DNA of 39,821 nt from Methanoregula sp. (GTDB lineage: Archaea > Halobacteriota > Methanomicrobia > Methanomicrobiales > Methanospirillaceae), in contig JAUYTV010000004.1 of NCBI GenBank assembly GCA_030694985.1, positions 1-39,821 of the forward strand, written 5' to 3'. Positions 5,396 to 35,914 of the stretch are shown here, in pieces (position 1 is the stretch's first letter; each line of letters opens with the position of its first letter). A model generated the notes under the pieces. That model worked only from the letters and a program-made list of their open reading frames with translations. It made no database searches and was not told where the DNA came from. Both the position numbers and the translations under genes were made by a program.

Positions 5396-5612
5396 TCTCA
5401 AATCTTTATTTTTTCGTTTTCTTCGGACTTTTTAAAAAAATATGGATTCATACCCAATATTTTTTTATGGCATGATTCATTGCACAATTTCAGATTTCTC
5501 ACTTCATACCACACAATATTGACATACCTGTTCAGTAAAAACAGTGTACAGCCCCCGCATAACCAATACCTTCTTTTTGTTGCAGGGTGACGAGAACAAT
5601 ACCGGAGTTTTC

Positions 5613-6878
5613 ATGCCCATACAGCAGATCCATGTGGAAAATTTCAAGAGTTTTTTAACACTCGATATAGAGCTGTCCCGCTTCAATGTGGTCATAGGAT
5701 CGAATGCCGCGGGAAAATCCAATTTTATCAGTATTTTCAAATTCCTGCGGGATATTGCACGTCACGGTCTGGCAGATGCGATCGCCATGCAGGGAGGGTC
5801 TGGGTATATCCTGAATGCGAAGATCGGAAATAAACGAGATCTGGTCATGCGGGTTTCCTATACCCCTGACCAGAAACTGGATATCATCGATCAGAAGAGC
5901 GGTGAGCATGCACTTCTGGGACTCCAGTTGTGCGAATCCTCCTACGAGTTTGCGATACGGTTCGATGCTTCCGGGGATGGATTTGCGATTATAAAAGACC
6001 GGCTCGTGATCGGATGCGAGGTCTCTTCGTGCGAACGAAATGGAACGAATTTTACGAAAAAAAACACCCTGGGACGTGGTGAGATACAGGTGATTAATGA
6101 GAAGGGCGATGTGAAGTTTGCAGTACACCTCCCAGATGGATGCACCCTGTCCCAAAACGATATCATCCCGCTCTTTTTCCGCGGGTCACATCTCAGGAAA
6201 CATACACTTCTCCTTGAGAGTTCGTACGCTTATCCGTTGCCGCACGTGGAGAAATTCTTTGACCGTATAGCGGTGTACGATATCGATCCAAAACTTTCAA
6301 AACGAGGAGCGTTAATAACCGGAAAACGGGCACTTGAGGAGGATGCAGGCAATCTTGCCGTTGTGGTAAAATCCATTATTGAAGATCCCAAAAAGAAACG
6401 GAAATTCTCAAACCTGCTCCATGACACATTGCCTTTTATCGAGGATTTCTCCGTGCAGAAGTTTATGGATGTCTCTCTTGTCCTCATGCTCCGGGAACGA
6501 TATGCAAAAAGCCTTGATCTTCCTGCCTCTTCCCTGTCAGATGGCACTATCACCATCTTTGCCCTGATAATCGCCCTCTATTTCGAGGACAAACCGTTCA
6601 TTATTATTGAAGAACCCGTCAGCCATATCCACCCGTTCTTAGTAGCCCGTGTCATGGCAATGATGAAGGAGGCGTCAGAAAAAAAGCAGCTGATGATCAC
6701 CACCCACAGCACCGAAGTTGTAAAACATGTCTGTATTGAAGATATCCTGCTCATCTCGCGGGACAGCGAGGGGTTCTCCGTCATCTCGCGCCCTGCGGAT
6801 AAAGAAGAGGTTAAGACGTTTCTAAAAAACGAGATAGGGATTGAAGAGCTCTTTGTCCAGAACCTGCTGGGATTGTGA
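5613..6878 (+). CDS. SMC/OLD-like AAA ATPase, possible defence ATPase
   Basis: The 421-residue protein has an ABC/SMC-type ATPase fold without an obvious long coiled coil. It starts with QIHVENFKSF, typical of RecF/OLD-like ATPases. Walker A is GSNAAGKS (29-36), an ABC-signature-like LSDGT lies near 310, Walker B is FIIIEEP near 330, and the H-loop is THS near 365. ATG 5613 is chosen because GGAG lies five bases before it and the protein then begins at the first strand. The next gene, two bases downstream, encodes a TOPRIM-like protein. That pairing resembles split OLD-type, RloAB and PARIS-type anti-phage modules, so a defence role is inferred, not shown. Confidence 0.85.
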   Translation: MPIQQIHVENFKSFLTLDIELSRFNVVIGSNAAGKSNFISIFKFLRDIARHGLADAIAMQGGSGYILNAKIGNKRDLVMRVSYTPDQKLDIIDQKSGEHALLGLQLCESSYEFAIRFDASGDGFAIIKDRLVIGCEVSSCERNGTNFTKKNTLGRGEIQVINEKGDVKFAVHLPDGCTLSQNDIIPLFFRGSHLRKHTLLLESSYAYPLPHVEKFFDRIAVYDIDPKLSKRGALITGKRALEEDAGNLAVVVKSIIEDPKKKRKFSNLLHDTLPFIEDFSVQKFMDVSLVLMLRERYAKSLDLPASSLSDGTITIFALIIALYFEDKPFIIIEEPVSHIHPFLVARVMAMMKEASEKKQLMITTHSTEVVKHVCIEDILLISRDSEGFSVISRPADKEEVKTFLKNEIGIEELFVQNLLGL

Positions 6879-6880
6879 GC

Positions 6881-7432
6881 ATGAAAAAACGGCTGTTTAT
6901 CCTGGTCGAAGGGCAAGATGATGTCAGGTTCTTTGGCCGCATCATAAAACCCCTGTTCGTTTCACGGTATGAATCCATTGAGATCATTGCCTATGCCAGT
7001 ATCAAGCGGGTGAAGGTGAACAACTTTTTAAAAAGTGTGCGGGAGATGAACAATGATTACATATTTGTTGCAGATATCGATTCCGAACGCTCAATACGGG
7101 ACAAAAAGCAGATTCTCTACTTTCACTTCAACAATATTTCCGGCCACCGTATTGTTATCGTAATCAAGGAAATTGAGAGCTGGTATTATGCCGGGTTATC
7201 TGCAACTGCCGCACTGGATCTGGGGGTAACGGATCTCTCCTGTACTGACGATCTCTTCAAGGAAGATTTCAACCAGCTCATGCCCCGAACCTTTGATTCA
7301 CGGATCGATTTCATGTTTGAGATTCTCAAATCTTTCTCGATTGAGACCGCTGTTTTAAAAAATCGTTCTTTTAAGTTCTTTGTTGAACATTACCGTATTG
7401 CAGACACTATTTCTGGTCATGCTCATCAATGA
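6881..7432 (+). CDS. small TOPRIM-like protein partnered with the ATPase
   Basis: The 183-residue protein begins MKKRLFILVEGQDD. E10 at the end of the first strand, D65 and D67 (FVADIDSE), and the later KEIESWYYAG match the layout of TOPRIM-like families such as DUF4276, RloB and DUF4435, in which the acidic residues bind metal for nucleic-acid cleavage. ATG 6881 follows the ATPase stop by two bases; a GTG at 6875 overlapping the stop is an alternative. The two genes are clearly one transcription unit. Nuclease activity is inferred from the family. The exact family is uncertain because assignment rests on a few motifs. Confidence 0.75.
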   Translation: MKKRLFILVEGQDDVRFFGRIIKPLFVSRYESIEIIAYASIKRVKVNNFLKSVREMNNDYIFVADIDSERSIRDKKQILYFHFNNISGHRIVIVIKEIESWYYAGLSATAALDLGVTDLSCTDDLFKEDFNQLMPRTFDSRIDFMFEILKSFSIETAVLKNRSFKFFVEHYRIADTISGHAHQ

Positions 7433-11157: not shown

Positions 11158-11973
11158 ATGATGAAACAGATCGCCCTGTACGGCAAAGGGGGTATCGGCA
11201 AGTCCACCACTTCGGCCAATCTCTCCGCTGCCCTTTCAGGTATGGGTCTTGATATACTTCAGATTGGCTGCGATCCCAAGCGGGACAGTACCCGGATGCT
11301 TATGCATGGGAACTTTATCCCGACAGTTATGGATCTTGTCCGGGTCCGTGGTGAAGCACCAATAACCCTGTCAGAGATCGAGTTTACCGGGTTTAACGGT
11401 GTCCGCTGTGTCGAGGCGGGAGGGCCGGAACCCGGCGTCGGGTGTGCCGGGCGGGGAATCATTGCCACGTTCCAGCTGCTCGAGAAGTTTGGAGCTCTAA
11501 AAGGCGATGTGATTGTGTACGATGTGCTCGGTGATGTTGTCTGCGGTGGATTTGCCATGCCGATGCGCGAAGGATATGCGCAGGATGTCTATCTCGTCAC
11601 TTCCGGAGAACTGATGTCTTTGTATGCCGCAAACAACATCTGCAAGGCAATACAACGCCTTTCTTCGAGAACCAAAAGTACGTGCCGGTTGGCCGGGGTG
11701 ATCTGTAATGCCAAGGATCAGCCGAATGAAGAAGAACTGGTATCAGAATTCGCAAAACGAGTGAACAGCTCGCTCATCCAGTTCATCCCCCGCAGTCGCG
11801 TGGTGCAGCTTGCAGAGCTCAACCGGAAAACTGTTATCGAATATGAACCTGATTCTGCCCAGGCACAATGTTACCGCAGCCTTGCCACACGCGTGATGGA
11901 AAATACCCACTTTACCATACCCACCCCGTTAGAGATTGATGATCTTGAATCCCTTGCCTATTCATACATCTAG
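11158..11973 (+). CDS. NifH/CfbC/BchL-like Fe protein of a nitrogenase-like complex
   Basis: The 271-residue protein is a P-loop ATPase with Walker [10 protein letters not shown] (9-17) and the two cysteines that hold the bridging 4Fe-4S cluster in NifH-type dimers: C96 (PGVGCAGRG) and C129 ([11 protein letters not shown]). It would pass electrons, with ATP hydrolysis, to the two component-1-like proteins encoded next. ATG 11158 (or 11161) fits a leaderless transcript. It overlaps the second gene. Similarity to CfbC, the F430 biosynthesis reductase, is expected for methanogens, but CfbC works with a single CfbD, whereas here two partners follow. No nif regulator (GlnB-like nifI) is present. 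Confidence 0.9.
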
Positions 11974-12982
11974 ATTCGGGGGTTGTACTCTCACTGGCGC
12001 GCTTTCGGTGACAACCCATATCCGCAATACCGCAAGTATTGTCCATGGGCCAAAGGGGTGTACCCATCATAACTTCTCCCTGTTACATGCAACCGGGCTG
12101 GATAACGAGACCGTCACCCTGCCGGCACTGGTTTCTACTGCTTTAAGCGAGAGCGATATTGTGTTTGGCGGGGAAGGTGCACTGCTACGAACCCTTGAGG
12201 CGGTGGCAGAAAATGACGTTGAAGCCATCTTCGTGCTCTCCAGCTGCATTGTTGATACCATCGGAGATGATGTAGCCGCTATCTGCAACAGGGAGTATGG
12301 TGTGCCGGTGGTCATTGTGCCTACCGCCGGTTTCCTTGGGGGTACCTTCCAGAACGGGGTGGCAAACGCTCTCTGTGCGATCGCTGGTACTGCTGAGCCC
12401 TGCCCGGTGAGTGACAGTGTAAATATCATTGGCGAGAAAAATCTTGAATACGAGGTTGAGGAGAATTATGCAGAGGTGATCCGTCTTCTCGATATGCTCG
12501 GTATTCCCGTAAATATCCGGTATGTGCATGATATCACATTCGATGAGATCGGGTTTCTGGGTGCGGCCCGGCTCAATGTCCTGAGGGAACCTGCACTCAT
12601 GCCGGTTGGGAATTACTTAAATGAGCGTTTTGGCACCCCGTTTATACCCTCCTTCCCGCTCGGACTTTCCGGCACCATCTCGTTTGTGGAGGCAGTTGCC
12701 GGAACGTTTGGCATAGATAGCAGCCGGGTTGTGGAAAAAGAACGCCTGTTCCAAAGAGATACTCTTGACGGGTTTTCTGATCTTGAGGGAATGGCCGCAT
12801 CGTTTGATCCTGCCATGATTGACCCGGAGGGTGTGAATTCTTCATCTGAAGTGGCAGAAGCAGTACGGATGCATATGAAAAAGCCGGGTACGAGTGGCGT
12901 ATCACTCGGTCCGGGCACCCCGGTTGGAACCACGGGTGTGCGGCGGATGCTCCATCGCTGGAGGCGTCAGCTTCATGCCTGA
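11939..12982 (+). CDS. nitrogenase component 1-like subunit, NifD/E-like
   Basis: This 347-residue protein resembles the NifD/NifE/BchN fold but is much shorter than NifD. The three N-terminal cysteines that bind the P-cluster or its 4Fe-4S equivalent are present: C16 (GGCTLTGA), C41 (HGPKGCTHH) and C103 ([12 protein letters not shown]). The middle region keeps the NIIGEKN and RFGTPFI patterns. No equivalent of the FeMo-co ligands NifD Cys275 or His442 is evident, so N2 reduction is unlikely. ATG 11939 overlaps the Fe-protein gene by 35 bases, and TTG 11936 is also possible. The substrate is unknown; a tetrapyrrole or a small C-S or C-N compound are options by analogy only. Confidence 0.82.
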
Positions 12983-14105
12983 ATGCACCAACCCTCTCTG
13001 GCCCTGTGCGATGACCGGGGCTGCGGCCTGCCTTGCCGGATTCGATGGGATGGCAGTTGTAATCCATGGTTCGAGCGGCTGTTATTATTACCCTACCACA
13101 CTCCTTCACGCACCCCTGCATGGCACATTCATTCTCGAGCACGAGATCATCTTTGGCTCTGAGGACCGGCTCAACGAAGTGATCGGCGGGTTGTCCGGCC
13201 AGGGCAAACGCATAGCGGTAATCACAACCTGTGTTCCGGCAATTCTTGGCGAAGATATCCGGTCGATGCTTGAAAAGCATGATGTGATCCTTGTGGACAG
13301 CCCGGGTTTTTCCGGCGATGTGGAGGTCGGATATAAAAATGCCCTCTCGATTCTGGCACCCCGTATTGATCCGGATCTCTGTGGGGTGAACATCGATGGC
13401 ATCTGCCTGTTCGATCCTTTCTATGCAGGAAATGTGCAGGAGATCACGCGACTGCTCACGATGGCTCGTATTCCTGTGGGGACGGTATTTTCTCTTGACC
13501 GGCTTGATAATGTGCAGCACGCTTCACCGTATACGATCGGTACCAACGAGGATTTTTTGAGCGGTGTTGGTAAGTATTGCGGCGGGACGCTCGGGTTCCG
13601 GACGATTGAGGCTACATTTAAGAAACTTAATGAGGTGTTTGCAGACGCAGATGTGGACCGGGTCTTTTCAGAGCTCGAACAGCAGGAGGAACGGATGGTC
13701 AAGGCATGTGACAAGTACCTGCTCCGGTTTGATCCCCCCTCTGTTGTAATATTTGCCGGTTTTTCCTATGCAGAGCATGCCGCAGGCACTCTCGAACGGT
13801 ACCTGGATGCAGACATCCTGTGTATCGGCTCTCGCAATGCACCGGGCGAATCGAAATATCCGGTTGAACAGGTTGCCGGGCTTGATGGGGTACCATCCCT
13901 TATCGCACAGCATAATCCGGATCTCGTGATGGGGTCATCTTTTGAGGGTTCAGTCTGTGAAACCCGGGCTTTTACCGGTATCACACCTCCGCTGCGGGGA
14001 ACCGTTCGGCTTGCCCCCACCCCTTTTGCGGGAATAAATGGCACCCTGTCTTTAGTAGAGCAGGTGCTCAACACCTGCATGGACAAAAAACCCGGCAGAT
14101 CCTGA
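12975..14105 (+). CDS. nitrogenase component 1-like subunit, NifK/N-like
   Basis: The 376-residue protein is the second component-1 chain. It begins [17 protein letters not shown] and keeps cluster cysteines C11, C36 (HGSSGCYYY) and C86 (ITTCVPAILGED), with C4 as an extra candidate. Later blocks such as VVIFAGFSYAEH and PDLVMGSS match the Rossmann-like domains of the family. ATG 12975 overlaps the previous stop by eight bases and has GGAGG at 12960-12964. A longer open frame starting at 12894 is rejected because it runs through the preceding gene's end without family similarity. The H-D-K order and tight overlaps argue for one heteromeric enzyme. Confidence 0.82.
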   Translation: MPECTNPLWPCAMTGAAACLAGFDGMAVVIHGSSGCYYYPTTLLHAPLHGTFILEHEIIFGSEDRLNEVIGGLSGQGKRIAVITTCVPAILGEDIRSMLEKHDVILVDSPGFSGDVEVGYKNALSILAPRIDPDLCGVNIDGICLFDPFYAGNVQEITRLLTMARIPVGTVFSLDRLDNVQHASPYTIGTNEDFLSGVGKYCGGTLGFRTIEATFKKLNEVFADADVDRVFSELEQQEERMVKACDKYLLRFDPPSVVIFAGFSYAEHAAGTLERYLDADILCIGSRNAPGESKYPVEQVAGLDGVPSLIAQHNPDLVMGSSFEGSVCETRAFTGITPPLRGTVRLAPTPFAGINGTLSLVEQVLNTCMDKKPGRS

Positions 14106-14287: not shown

Positions 14288-14698
14288 ATGATGGAAAAAG
14301 CAGGATATCTCCAACGAACCGGGTACAGCGCATTAGACAGTGAAGGAAATGTTCATGCAGTGATTGAACTCCATATCCTTGGAAGCCGGTATGCAATACG
14401 GCGTTCTGATCTCTCAAAGGCGGTCTCCGGTCACGTTTTTGTGCAACTGGAGGAACTCACCCACCAGTGGCAATACTATCTTGGAGCGGTAAAGGGTCTC
14501 GCACAGGTCTCGGTCTCCGGTAAAGCCTTGAACATCGAGTTGTTTGAGGCCGGAAATTTCACGGTCTCCTTAAACTCACTACGGGGTGTAATGTACGGAA
14601 AAGAGCGTCTGGCAACCATTGTTAAGATTCCGGCACAGCCAGCCATCAGCGCCCGCTGTGGTGTACACGGGCAGCAGCAGATCAGTGCGGCAGTTTAA
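14288..14698 (+). CDS. small protein of unknown function
   Basis: The 136-residue protein is soluble with alternating hydrophobic strands (AVIELHILGSRYAI, HVFVQLEEL, ALNIELFEAG, TVSLNSLRGVMYG). This suggests a mainly beta fold, perhaps a ligand-binding barrel. It has no recognised motif and only one cysteine, near the end (SARCGVHG). It follows the nitrogenase-like operon by about 180 bases but appears to have its own promoter, so a functional link is only a guess. A GGTGG sequence precedes ATG 14288. Confidence 0.65.
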   Translation: MMEKAGYLQRTGYSALDSEGNVHAVIELHILGSRYAIRRSDLSKAVSGHVFVQLEELTHQWQYYLGAVKGLAQVSVSGKALNIELFEAGNFTVSLNSLRGVMYGKERLATIVKIPAQPAISARCGVHGQQQISAAV

Positions 14699-33811: not shown

Positions 33812-34480
33812 TCATGCCCCGTTCTTTGCTGATACCCGCTGGTCGTAGATACGGATCGCTTTGAGAAGATCGATCTTCCGGAACAGAGGCCAGTAGGGGC
33901 GCAGAAATAGACTGCCGATTCGTGACCGCTTGCAAAGCCAGGGAAGGAAGTTTGATGTGCGGTATTCATTCCCGGTCCGGATGATGAGGTCAACCGGTGG
34001 CAATCCTTTTCCAGCATGGAGGTGCTGCTCTACCGTGTGGACATCGATGGTATCCGGGTTGATCCTGTCTCTCTCTACTTCTGAAAGAATCTCGCGGGTA
34101 GCAGGAACGATCTCGTTTCTCCCCCCATAGGCAAGCGCGATGTTGAGGTGAAACCCGGTATGGTCTTTTGTTGCCTCTTCAGCAGTATTGATGGCAGCCT
34201 TCATGTCATCGGGAAGTAAGGAACGATCCCCTGCCATCTGAACGCGGATCTTGTATCTCTCGACCCGCTCATCATTTAGCACGTTGAGGAACTTTTCCTT
34301 AAACAGGGAAAAGAGCATTCCCACCTCATCCTGCTCTCTTGAGAAGTTCTCATTTGAGAAGGTATAGAGGGTGATATGACTGATGCCAAGTTCGTGTGCC
34401 CGGCCGGAACATCTTCTCCATCTTGCCCGCCCCAGACCCGTGTCCCTCTGTAGAGAGACGGATTCAGTTTTACGCTGATG
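33812..34480 (-). pseudogene. decayed duplicate of uppS
   Basis: The sequence is a close copy of the intact uppS at 35144-35914, for example sharing AHELGISHITLYTFS and GRNEIV and the same end (AKNGA). Its N-terminal third, including the catalytic DGNRR region, is lost or scrambled by indels: the part equal to DTASGHRAGADKTEEM reads DTGLGRARWRRCSGR. A local frameshift and back-shift changes NFLPWLASGHESAVYF to NFLPWLCKRSRIGSLF. It should not make an active enzyme. The open frame is extended upstream by unrelated sequence, which is not included. Confidence 0.85.
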
Positions 34481-34577
34481 GAATCGTAAAAAGAATTCTC
34501 TCAGCGCAATTTTTTTCATACTTATATCGTGCCACGCATGGTTCAGCACTTGGCACACCGAAATAAAACGAAATATC

Positions 34578-35039
34578 CTAATCAAAATCAGAGAGGTCTG
34601 ATTTACAGTTAATCCACCATCCGATAATGAGAATGATCGGGACACCCACAGGAATAGCAAAGCCTCCCTGAAAGCGACACAGGGCAGATAAACCGAGAAC
34701 GAGTCCTCCAGCAATTGTAAAATATGAGGCCGTTCTGATTAATGGAGATTTTTCCTCGATATATGCAAAAATCGTGATACAGAGCCCGATAAGGAGAATA
34801 ACAGAGCCAATCGTCCAGAAGGAAGTGGCGGCAATATTATACAATCCCGTGTTTTGGCCAAGATAAATATAGAAAATATCCTTATGACCGAGAATCAGAC
34901 TGTTTCCATACTGAGATTGTTGGTACCGGAAGAGCGCCCACTGTATATTGACTAACAGCCAGTCGCCCCACATGTAGATGTTTAACGGTATCAAAAAAAT
35001 GAGGCACTGGAGTATAAGCGGAATTTTAAATCGGGTCAT
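34578..35039 (-). CDS. small membrane protein of unknown function
   Basis: The 153-residue protein has four predicted membrane helices, a Trp/Tyr-rich loop (MWGDWLLVNIQWALFRYQQS) and an acidic C-terminal tail (KSDLSDFD). No family was recognised. It lies between the decayed and the intact copies of uppS and was probably bracketed when the duplication formed. Codon use does not look foreign by eye. The start ATG 35039 is preceded by a short leader without a strong ribosome site. Confidence 0.6.
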   Translation of the reverse strand: MTRFKIPLILQCLIFLIPLNIYMWGDWLLVNIQWALFRYQQSQYGNSLILGHKDIFYIYLGQNTGLYNIAATSFWTIGSVILLIGLCITIFAYIEEKSPLIRTASYFTIAGGLVLGLSALCRFQGGFAIPVGVPIILIIGWWINCKSDLSDFD

Positions 35040-35143: not shown

Positions 35144-35914
35144 TCAAGCCCCGTTCTTAGCCGATACCCGCTGGTCGTAGATACGGATCGCTCTTAAAAG
35201 ATCGATCTTCCGGAACAGAGGCCAGTAGGGAGCGCAGAAATAGACTGCCGATTCGTGACCGCTTGCAAGCCACGGCAGGAAGTTTGATGTGCGGTATTCA
35301 TTGCCGGTCCGGATGATGAGGTCAACCGGTGGCAATCCTTTTCCAGCATGGAGGTGCTGCTCTACCGTGTGGACATCGATGTTATCCGGGTTTATTCCCT
35401 TATTGTTCACTTCAGCAAGAATTTCCCGGGCAGCAAGAACGATCTCGTTTCTCCCGCCATAGGCAAGCGCGATGTTGAGATGAAACCCGGTATGGTTCTT
35501 TGTCGCCTCTTCGGCAGCATTTATGGCAGTCTGCAGGTCATCGGGAAGTAGTAAACGATCCCCTACCATCTGGACACGAATCTTGTATCTCTTCACCCGC
35601 TCATCGTTGAGCACGCTGAGGAACTTTTCCTTAAACAGGGAAAAGAGATTTCCCACTTCATCCTGCTCCCTTGAGAAGTTCTCAGTTGAGAAGGTATAGA
35701 GGGTGATATGACTGATGCCGAGTTCATGTGCCCAGTCAAGCATCTCTTCAGTCTTGTCTGCTCCTGCCCGATGCCCGCTTGCGGTATCTACGCCAAACAG
35801 TTTTGCATAGCGCCGGTTCCCGTCCTGAATGATTGCAATGTGATGGGGCACATGCCGGAGCTGCATTTTGAGATATCGTTCGTACAGGGGATCGATGATT
35901 GTTCGCAGGATCAT
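35144..35914 (-). CDS. uppS: cis-prenyltransferase (undecaprenyl/polyprenyl diphosphate synthase family)
   Basis: The 256-residue protein has the conserved HHIAIIQDGNRRYAK with catalytic D31, the ALAYGGRNEIV motif, and LIIRTGNEYRTSNFLPW before the C terminus. In archaea it would make the long polyprenyl chain of the dolichol-type lipid carrier used for N-glycosylation. Its ATG overlaps the stop of the radical SAM gene by four bases, so the two are co-translated. The C terminus (SAVYFCAPYWPLFRK) departs from the canonical SELYF form. It is the intact member of a recent duplication. Confidence 0.9.
   Translation of the reverse strand: MILRTIIDPLYERYLKMQLRHVPHHIAIIQDGNRRYAKLFGVDTASGHRAGADKTEEMLDWAHELGISHITLYTFSTENFSREQDEVGNLFSLFKEKFLSVLNDERVKRYKIRVQMVGDRLLLPDDLQTAINAAEEATKNHTGFHLNIALAYGGRNEIVLAAREILAEVNNKGINPDNIDVHTVEQHLHAGKGLPPVDLIIRTGNEYRTSNFLPWLASGHESAVYFCAPYWPLFRKIDLLRAIRIYDQRVSAKNGA

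Follow-up and report, generated by a model that had tools for sequence, protein, structure and literature searches.

What could a nitrogenase-like gene set reduce in a methanogen if no nif cluster accompanies it, and what else does its Fe protein serve? The question is raised by three genes, here called H, D and K, in a stretch of 39,821 nucleotides from Methanoregula sp. (contig JAUYTV010000004.1), which as a whole is referred to as the window. The preliminary description of this DNA, which was made from the letters alone, reported three overlapping genes encoding a NifH-type Fe protein and two different component-1-like chains. The open reading frames and Pfam agree with that (Table 1): H is assigned to Fer4_NifH (1.1e-106), and both D (9.4e-53) and K (1.3e-30) to Oxidored_nitro. 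The start codon of H is the ATG at 11158 or the one at 11161, and its stop lies at 11973; H overlaps D by 35 bp, and D overlaps K by 8 bp. In comparison to close relatives the dN/dS values are 0.03-0.04 for H and 0.10-0.13 for D and K. Because of these low values and because H lies immediately 5' of D in all 80 named loci, the arrangement is not due to chance; H, D and K are real genes under strong purifying selection. Rfam and promoter scans found nothing.

Table 1. The H-D-K gene set and the adjoining gene S in the window
Feature	Description	Position	Strand	Evidence
H	NifH/CfbC-type Fe protein, 271 aa	11158..11973	+	Pfam, NCBIfam, genome search
D	alpha-type component-1 subunit, 347 aa	11939..12982	+	Cys alignment, fold, tree
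K	beta-type component-1 subunit, 376 aa, full-length C-terminal region	12975..14105	+	Cys alignment, fold, tree
S	136-aa protein, no known family	14288..14698	+	position downstream of K

Orthologues of D and K occur in nearly all genera of Methanomicrobiales, and Methanoregula, Methanoculleus and Methanofollis are among the named loci. Across a sample of the phylum, matches from the order itself attain 1e-102 or better, and the best matches from outside the order, at about 1e-54, are fused proteins. H-D-K is an order-wide trait of Methanomicrobiales. K follows D in 53 of the 80 named loci and is found a few kilobases away in 14 loci of the Methanoculleus type; for the remaining 13 it is outside the stretch examined. 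In Methanospirillum H is directly followed by S, and D and K are gone. As this genus kept H and lost the other two, DK is dispensable and H is not. S has no Pfam match. It is encoded downstream of K in Methanoregulaceae, and in 40 of the 80 named loci overall; a homologue (39%) lies directly 3' of H in Methanospirillum. A tie of S to the enzyme is suggested by position only.

The flanks of the operon (TrkH, flavodiiron-like, PAS and leu genes) are uninformative on the substrate, and the TrkH, flavodiiron-like and leu neighbours were discarded as a clue since they represent general synteny. Two other gene pairs of the window may be mentioned. An ATP-binding AAA-type gene (5544-6878) overlaps a TOPRIM-like gene with a weak OLD-like match (6875-7432); the pair is conserved in eight of 21 neighbourhoods and is possibly an OLD-type defence pair. 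The near-duplicate genes at 33812-34714 and 35144-35914 look like cis-prenyltransferases, the first of them with a seemingly divergent or disrupted N-terminal part.

It was implied earlier that H-D-K is self-contained and stands apart from F430 synthesis. This view is not supported. The genome is a draft of 58 contigs and 96% completeness, in which the window H is the sole full-length NifH-family protein; a second NifH-family gene of that kind was not found in these contigs. The component-1 proteins of the genome are three, namely D, K and a CfbD encoded on contig C55 within a cfbA-cfbE-cfbD-cfbB cluster that contains no cfbC. The proposed search for separate cfbC and cfbD genes has thus recovered cfbD and no separate cfbC. 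We also searched 20 Methanomicrobiales genomes with a canonical CfbC that is encoded beside cfbD in a Methanosarcina-type genome. In 15 of these, many of which are closed, no Fe protein other than the window-type H was found. All methanogens need F430, and CfbD requires an Fe protein (PMC7242693). Since no other Fe protein is present, H must double as CfbC, and by this elimination we infer with strong confidence that H also acts for CfbD. A private Fe protein for D-K is ruled out, as there is no second H in this genome or in most genomes checked.

The two cysteines which the preliminary description gave for H, C96 and C129 (C95 and C128 if numbered from the second Met), are invariant among 21 aligned orthologues. 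H reaches 411.6 bits with the NCBIfam CfbC model NF033200, which is above the cut-off of 402, and 386 with the nifH model TIGR01287, which is under the cut-off of that model. In the profile scores of H, NifH ranks above canonical CfbC. The tree places the window H in a clade of its own (97/96), apart from the CfbC clade and from NifH; a tree in which H and CfbC are held together as one clade is not rejected (AU test, p 0.289).

Additional Fe proteins were seen in two genomes. The genome G131 (locus L249) encodes HDK at ~149 kb and a second, shorter Fe protein at C1:1051822-1052565, which is probably the Mlab_1039/1040 system of PMC3464626. Mlab_1039/1040 is an unlikely H-D-K orthologue in M. 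labreanum, given that HDK is at ~149 kb and the second H at 1,051,822. In the genome G034 (L226) there is a further H accompanied by two component-1 genes, with additional component-1 pieces close by; in the tree this extra set is near a Treponema plasmid pair.

D and K differ from CfbD, as had been concluded from their heteromeric nature. CfbD is a homodimer with two cluster cysteines per chain, whereas D and K are two different, co-conserved chains with six cluster cysteines. The CfbD model TIGR03282 gives only 40.7 and 38.4 bits for D and K, the cut-off being 268.4. In the component-1 tree, which was calculated without named Mar/Isr sequences, D forms a clade (100/99) whose sister group is the D part of fused H-D proteins (100/92), and K forms a clade (100/100) with the K of the fused systems as its sister at moderate support (92/76). 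CfbD, NifD/NifE and NifK/NifN are clades separate from both. The CfbD branch is very long, and a tree that unites D with CfbD is not rejected (AU test, p 0.187). D or K as CfbD is ruled out by the scores far under the cut-off and by the real CfbD in the cfb cluster. What they have in common with the CfbCD system is the H protein that passes the CfbC cut-off, the shortness of D (CfbD has 350-360 aa) and a lack of FeMo-co ligands. The preliminary description had named, as speaking against a new reductase, a position of the chains inside CfbC/CfbD with no other cfbCD in the genome; this applies to H in its function and does not apply to D and K.

A further component-1 protein, here called D2, was noticed in other genomes. 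It is a single chain of 392-425 aa with three cluster cysteines that keeps the Cys275 equivalent (L244:7927-9117 and L245:5372-6619, both on the minus strand, as well as L229, L230, L246 and L251). In Methanoculleus-type genomes its gene is located just after cfbB-ilvE in the cfb cluster, elsewhere it is unlinked. No H gene neighbours D2, and the genome of the window does not encode it.

The three N-terminal cysteines reported for each chain are C16, C41 and C103 in D and C11, C36 and C86 in K, and all are invariant in 21 aligned sets. Together they keep the six P-cluster cysteines as known from NifDK and MarDK. The FeMo-co ligands of NifD, which had been described as not evident, are indeed missing. 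The position of Cys275 is occupied by Arg in 12 of 12 D proteins, and in the same 12 proteins roughly half of what follows domain II is gone, including the site of His442. Downstream of F249 the D proteins have 90-106 residues, compared to 113-127 in CfbD, 165-167 in fused D, 178-219 in NifE and 185-241 in NifD. Also as described, nifB is not located nearby; a short nifB is found only elsewhere in the genome (C30:20939-21751). The AlphaFold single-chain models of D (pLDDT 86) and K (pLDDT 91) match NifE/NifD chains and VnfK/NifN chains in the PDB, respectively. From these ligands one would expect an Fe-S relay where D meets K, and an open site in which FeMo-co is lacking. A nif system is ruled out by the missing ligands and the separate clades, and the sequences support a heteromeric component which is neither CfbD nor NifDK nor NifEN. 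Nitrogenase-like pairs without FeMo-co ligands and H-D (H-NifE) fusions were described from archaea in 2012 by Dos Santos et al. (PMC3464626). Among the openly available papers we found none that deals with H-D-K in Methanomicrobiales or with a shared Fe protein.

The clues to the substrate come from the sister system. Operons with a fused H-D gene plus K (L216, L231, L256-L270), which are uncharacterised, are encoded by Methanosarcinales and some Methanomicrobiales. They resemble the window set in a D-type chain with three cluster cysteines and no Cys275. In contrast to it, H and D are fused, the C-terminal region of D is full, and K contributes one Cys plus an Asp, so that the cluster ligands are reminiscent of DPOR. 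A FecCD/Btu-type importer, CbiZ, CbiK or CobN is found nearby in 14 of 18 fused loci, and none of them in the other four; importer parts (substrate-binding protein, FecCD permease and ABC ATPase) adjoin in 12 of the 18. Pfam classes CbiZ, CbiK and CobN as enzymes of corrinoids or tetrapyrroles. A ChlI-like ATPase was recognised by eye in some of these loci. The fused HD-K loci are therefore a candidate system for tetrapyrrole or corrinoid uptake and reduction. This context belongs to the sister system, not to the locus in the window. Among the H-D-K loci proper, that of Methanocorpusculum is preceded by an SBP_bac_5-type ABC transporter and a methyltransferase.

DPOR and COR (BchLNB and BchXYZ) are tetrapyrrole reductases without an active-site metallocluster. 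They share with the window set the H-D-K style and, as predicted for D-K, the lack of such a cluster. On the other hand, the DPOR cluster is held by three Cys and one Asp versus six Cys in D-K, H-D-K is distant from these enzymes in the tree, and there is no chlorophyll pathway.

The corrinoid and tetrapyrrole loci of the sister system and the shared CfbC role make a Ni- or Co-tetrapyrrole, by analogy, the best-supported guess for the substrate. The earlier suggestion of a tetrapyrrole or a small sulfur or nitrogen compound can accordingly be narrowed, since its second half is weakened by the setting of the sister loci. We give an even chance to the reading that H-D-K is an ATP-dependent two-component Ni- or Co-tetrapyrrole reductase whose H is shared with F430 synthesis. 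The Fe protein, as H2, would bind ATP and release electrons singly from its [4Fe-4S] cluster. The electrons would pass to an Fe-S cluster between D and K, presumably of the P-cluster type and held by the six cysteines. In a cavity that lacks a FeMo-co-like cluster, D-K would then reduce a bulky substrate. This would most likely be a Ni- or Co-tetrapyrrole, and the reaction a double-bond or related ring reduction. The same H would also serve the CfbD homodimer. Against a tetrapyrrole, six cysteines suggest a P-cluster, unlike the [4Fe-4S] cluster of DPOR and CfbD. More tentatively, we suggest that in the ancestor of Methanomicrobiales the Fe protein of the H-D-K operon became CfbC by takeover or divergence and now powers two components, of which D-K would carry out an undescribed Ni- or Co-tetrapyrrole reduction through a relay of the P-cluster type, its active site being free of any metallocluster.

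The closest rival to tetrapyrrole reduction is reductive activation of a tetrapyrrole, in which H-D-K would use ATP to drive low-potential electrons into an inactive tetrapyrrole enzyme with Ni(II) or Co(II), namely MCR or a corrinoid protein. The Fe protein in common with F430 synthesis, the corrinoid setting of the fused system and the open site in D fit to this. However, the known MCR activation complex consists of McrC, Mmp proteins and A2 with no Nif homologues (PMC12176620), and Methanospirillum as well as methanogens outside the order manage without DK. We regard reductive activation as unlikely.

A NifEN-like scaffold, which would mature [8Fe-9S-C] clusters or hand them on, to the MCR activation complex for instance, is a more doubtful alternative. 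NifE is the nearest curated family to D (8.9e-32) as well as its best match in the PDB, and the genome contains the short nifB. But every D carries Arg at the Cys275 equivalent and is shortened at the C-terminus, and the nifE and nifN models are not passed (nifE 110 bits, cut-off 505). Moreover, NifB is also present in Methanospirillum, which has no DK, and methanogens outside the order activate MCR without DK.

We see a small chance, lower again, for a reductase of the Mar/Isr kind acting on a small sulfur or nitrogen molecule. The P-cluster cysteines are six as in MarDK, yet the active site of MarDK holds an [Fe8S9C] cluster (PMC12552129), for which D has no ligands. By definition, Isr, Mar and Nfa are BHDK sets in which B is a radical-SAM gene (PMC11423573), and no such gene is shared among the conserved neighbours of 21 loci.

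Least probable is that H is no more than CfbC, with D-K as an auxiliary or regulatory partner of CfbC/CfbD that has no substrate of its own, for although H passes the CfbC model and alone is retained in Methanospirillum, the cluster cysteines of D and K are kept order-wide under the dN/dS given above, which is what one expects of an enzyme that accepts electrons.

Among hydrogenotrophic methanogens the Methanomicrobiales are major methane producers, and an H-D-K set to which no function is assigned is carried by nearly all of them. Should CfbD and D-K both be fed by H, the electron donor for F430 synthesis in the order is a shared one, and the customary pairing of cfbC and cfbD breaks down there. 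A D-K with six cysteines and no cluster at its active site would bridge the gap between DPOR and CfbCD on the one side and Mar and nitrogenase on the other. H-D-K also opens a testable way to find a new tetrapyrrole reaction of methanogens.
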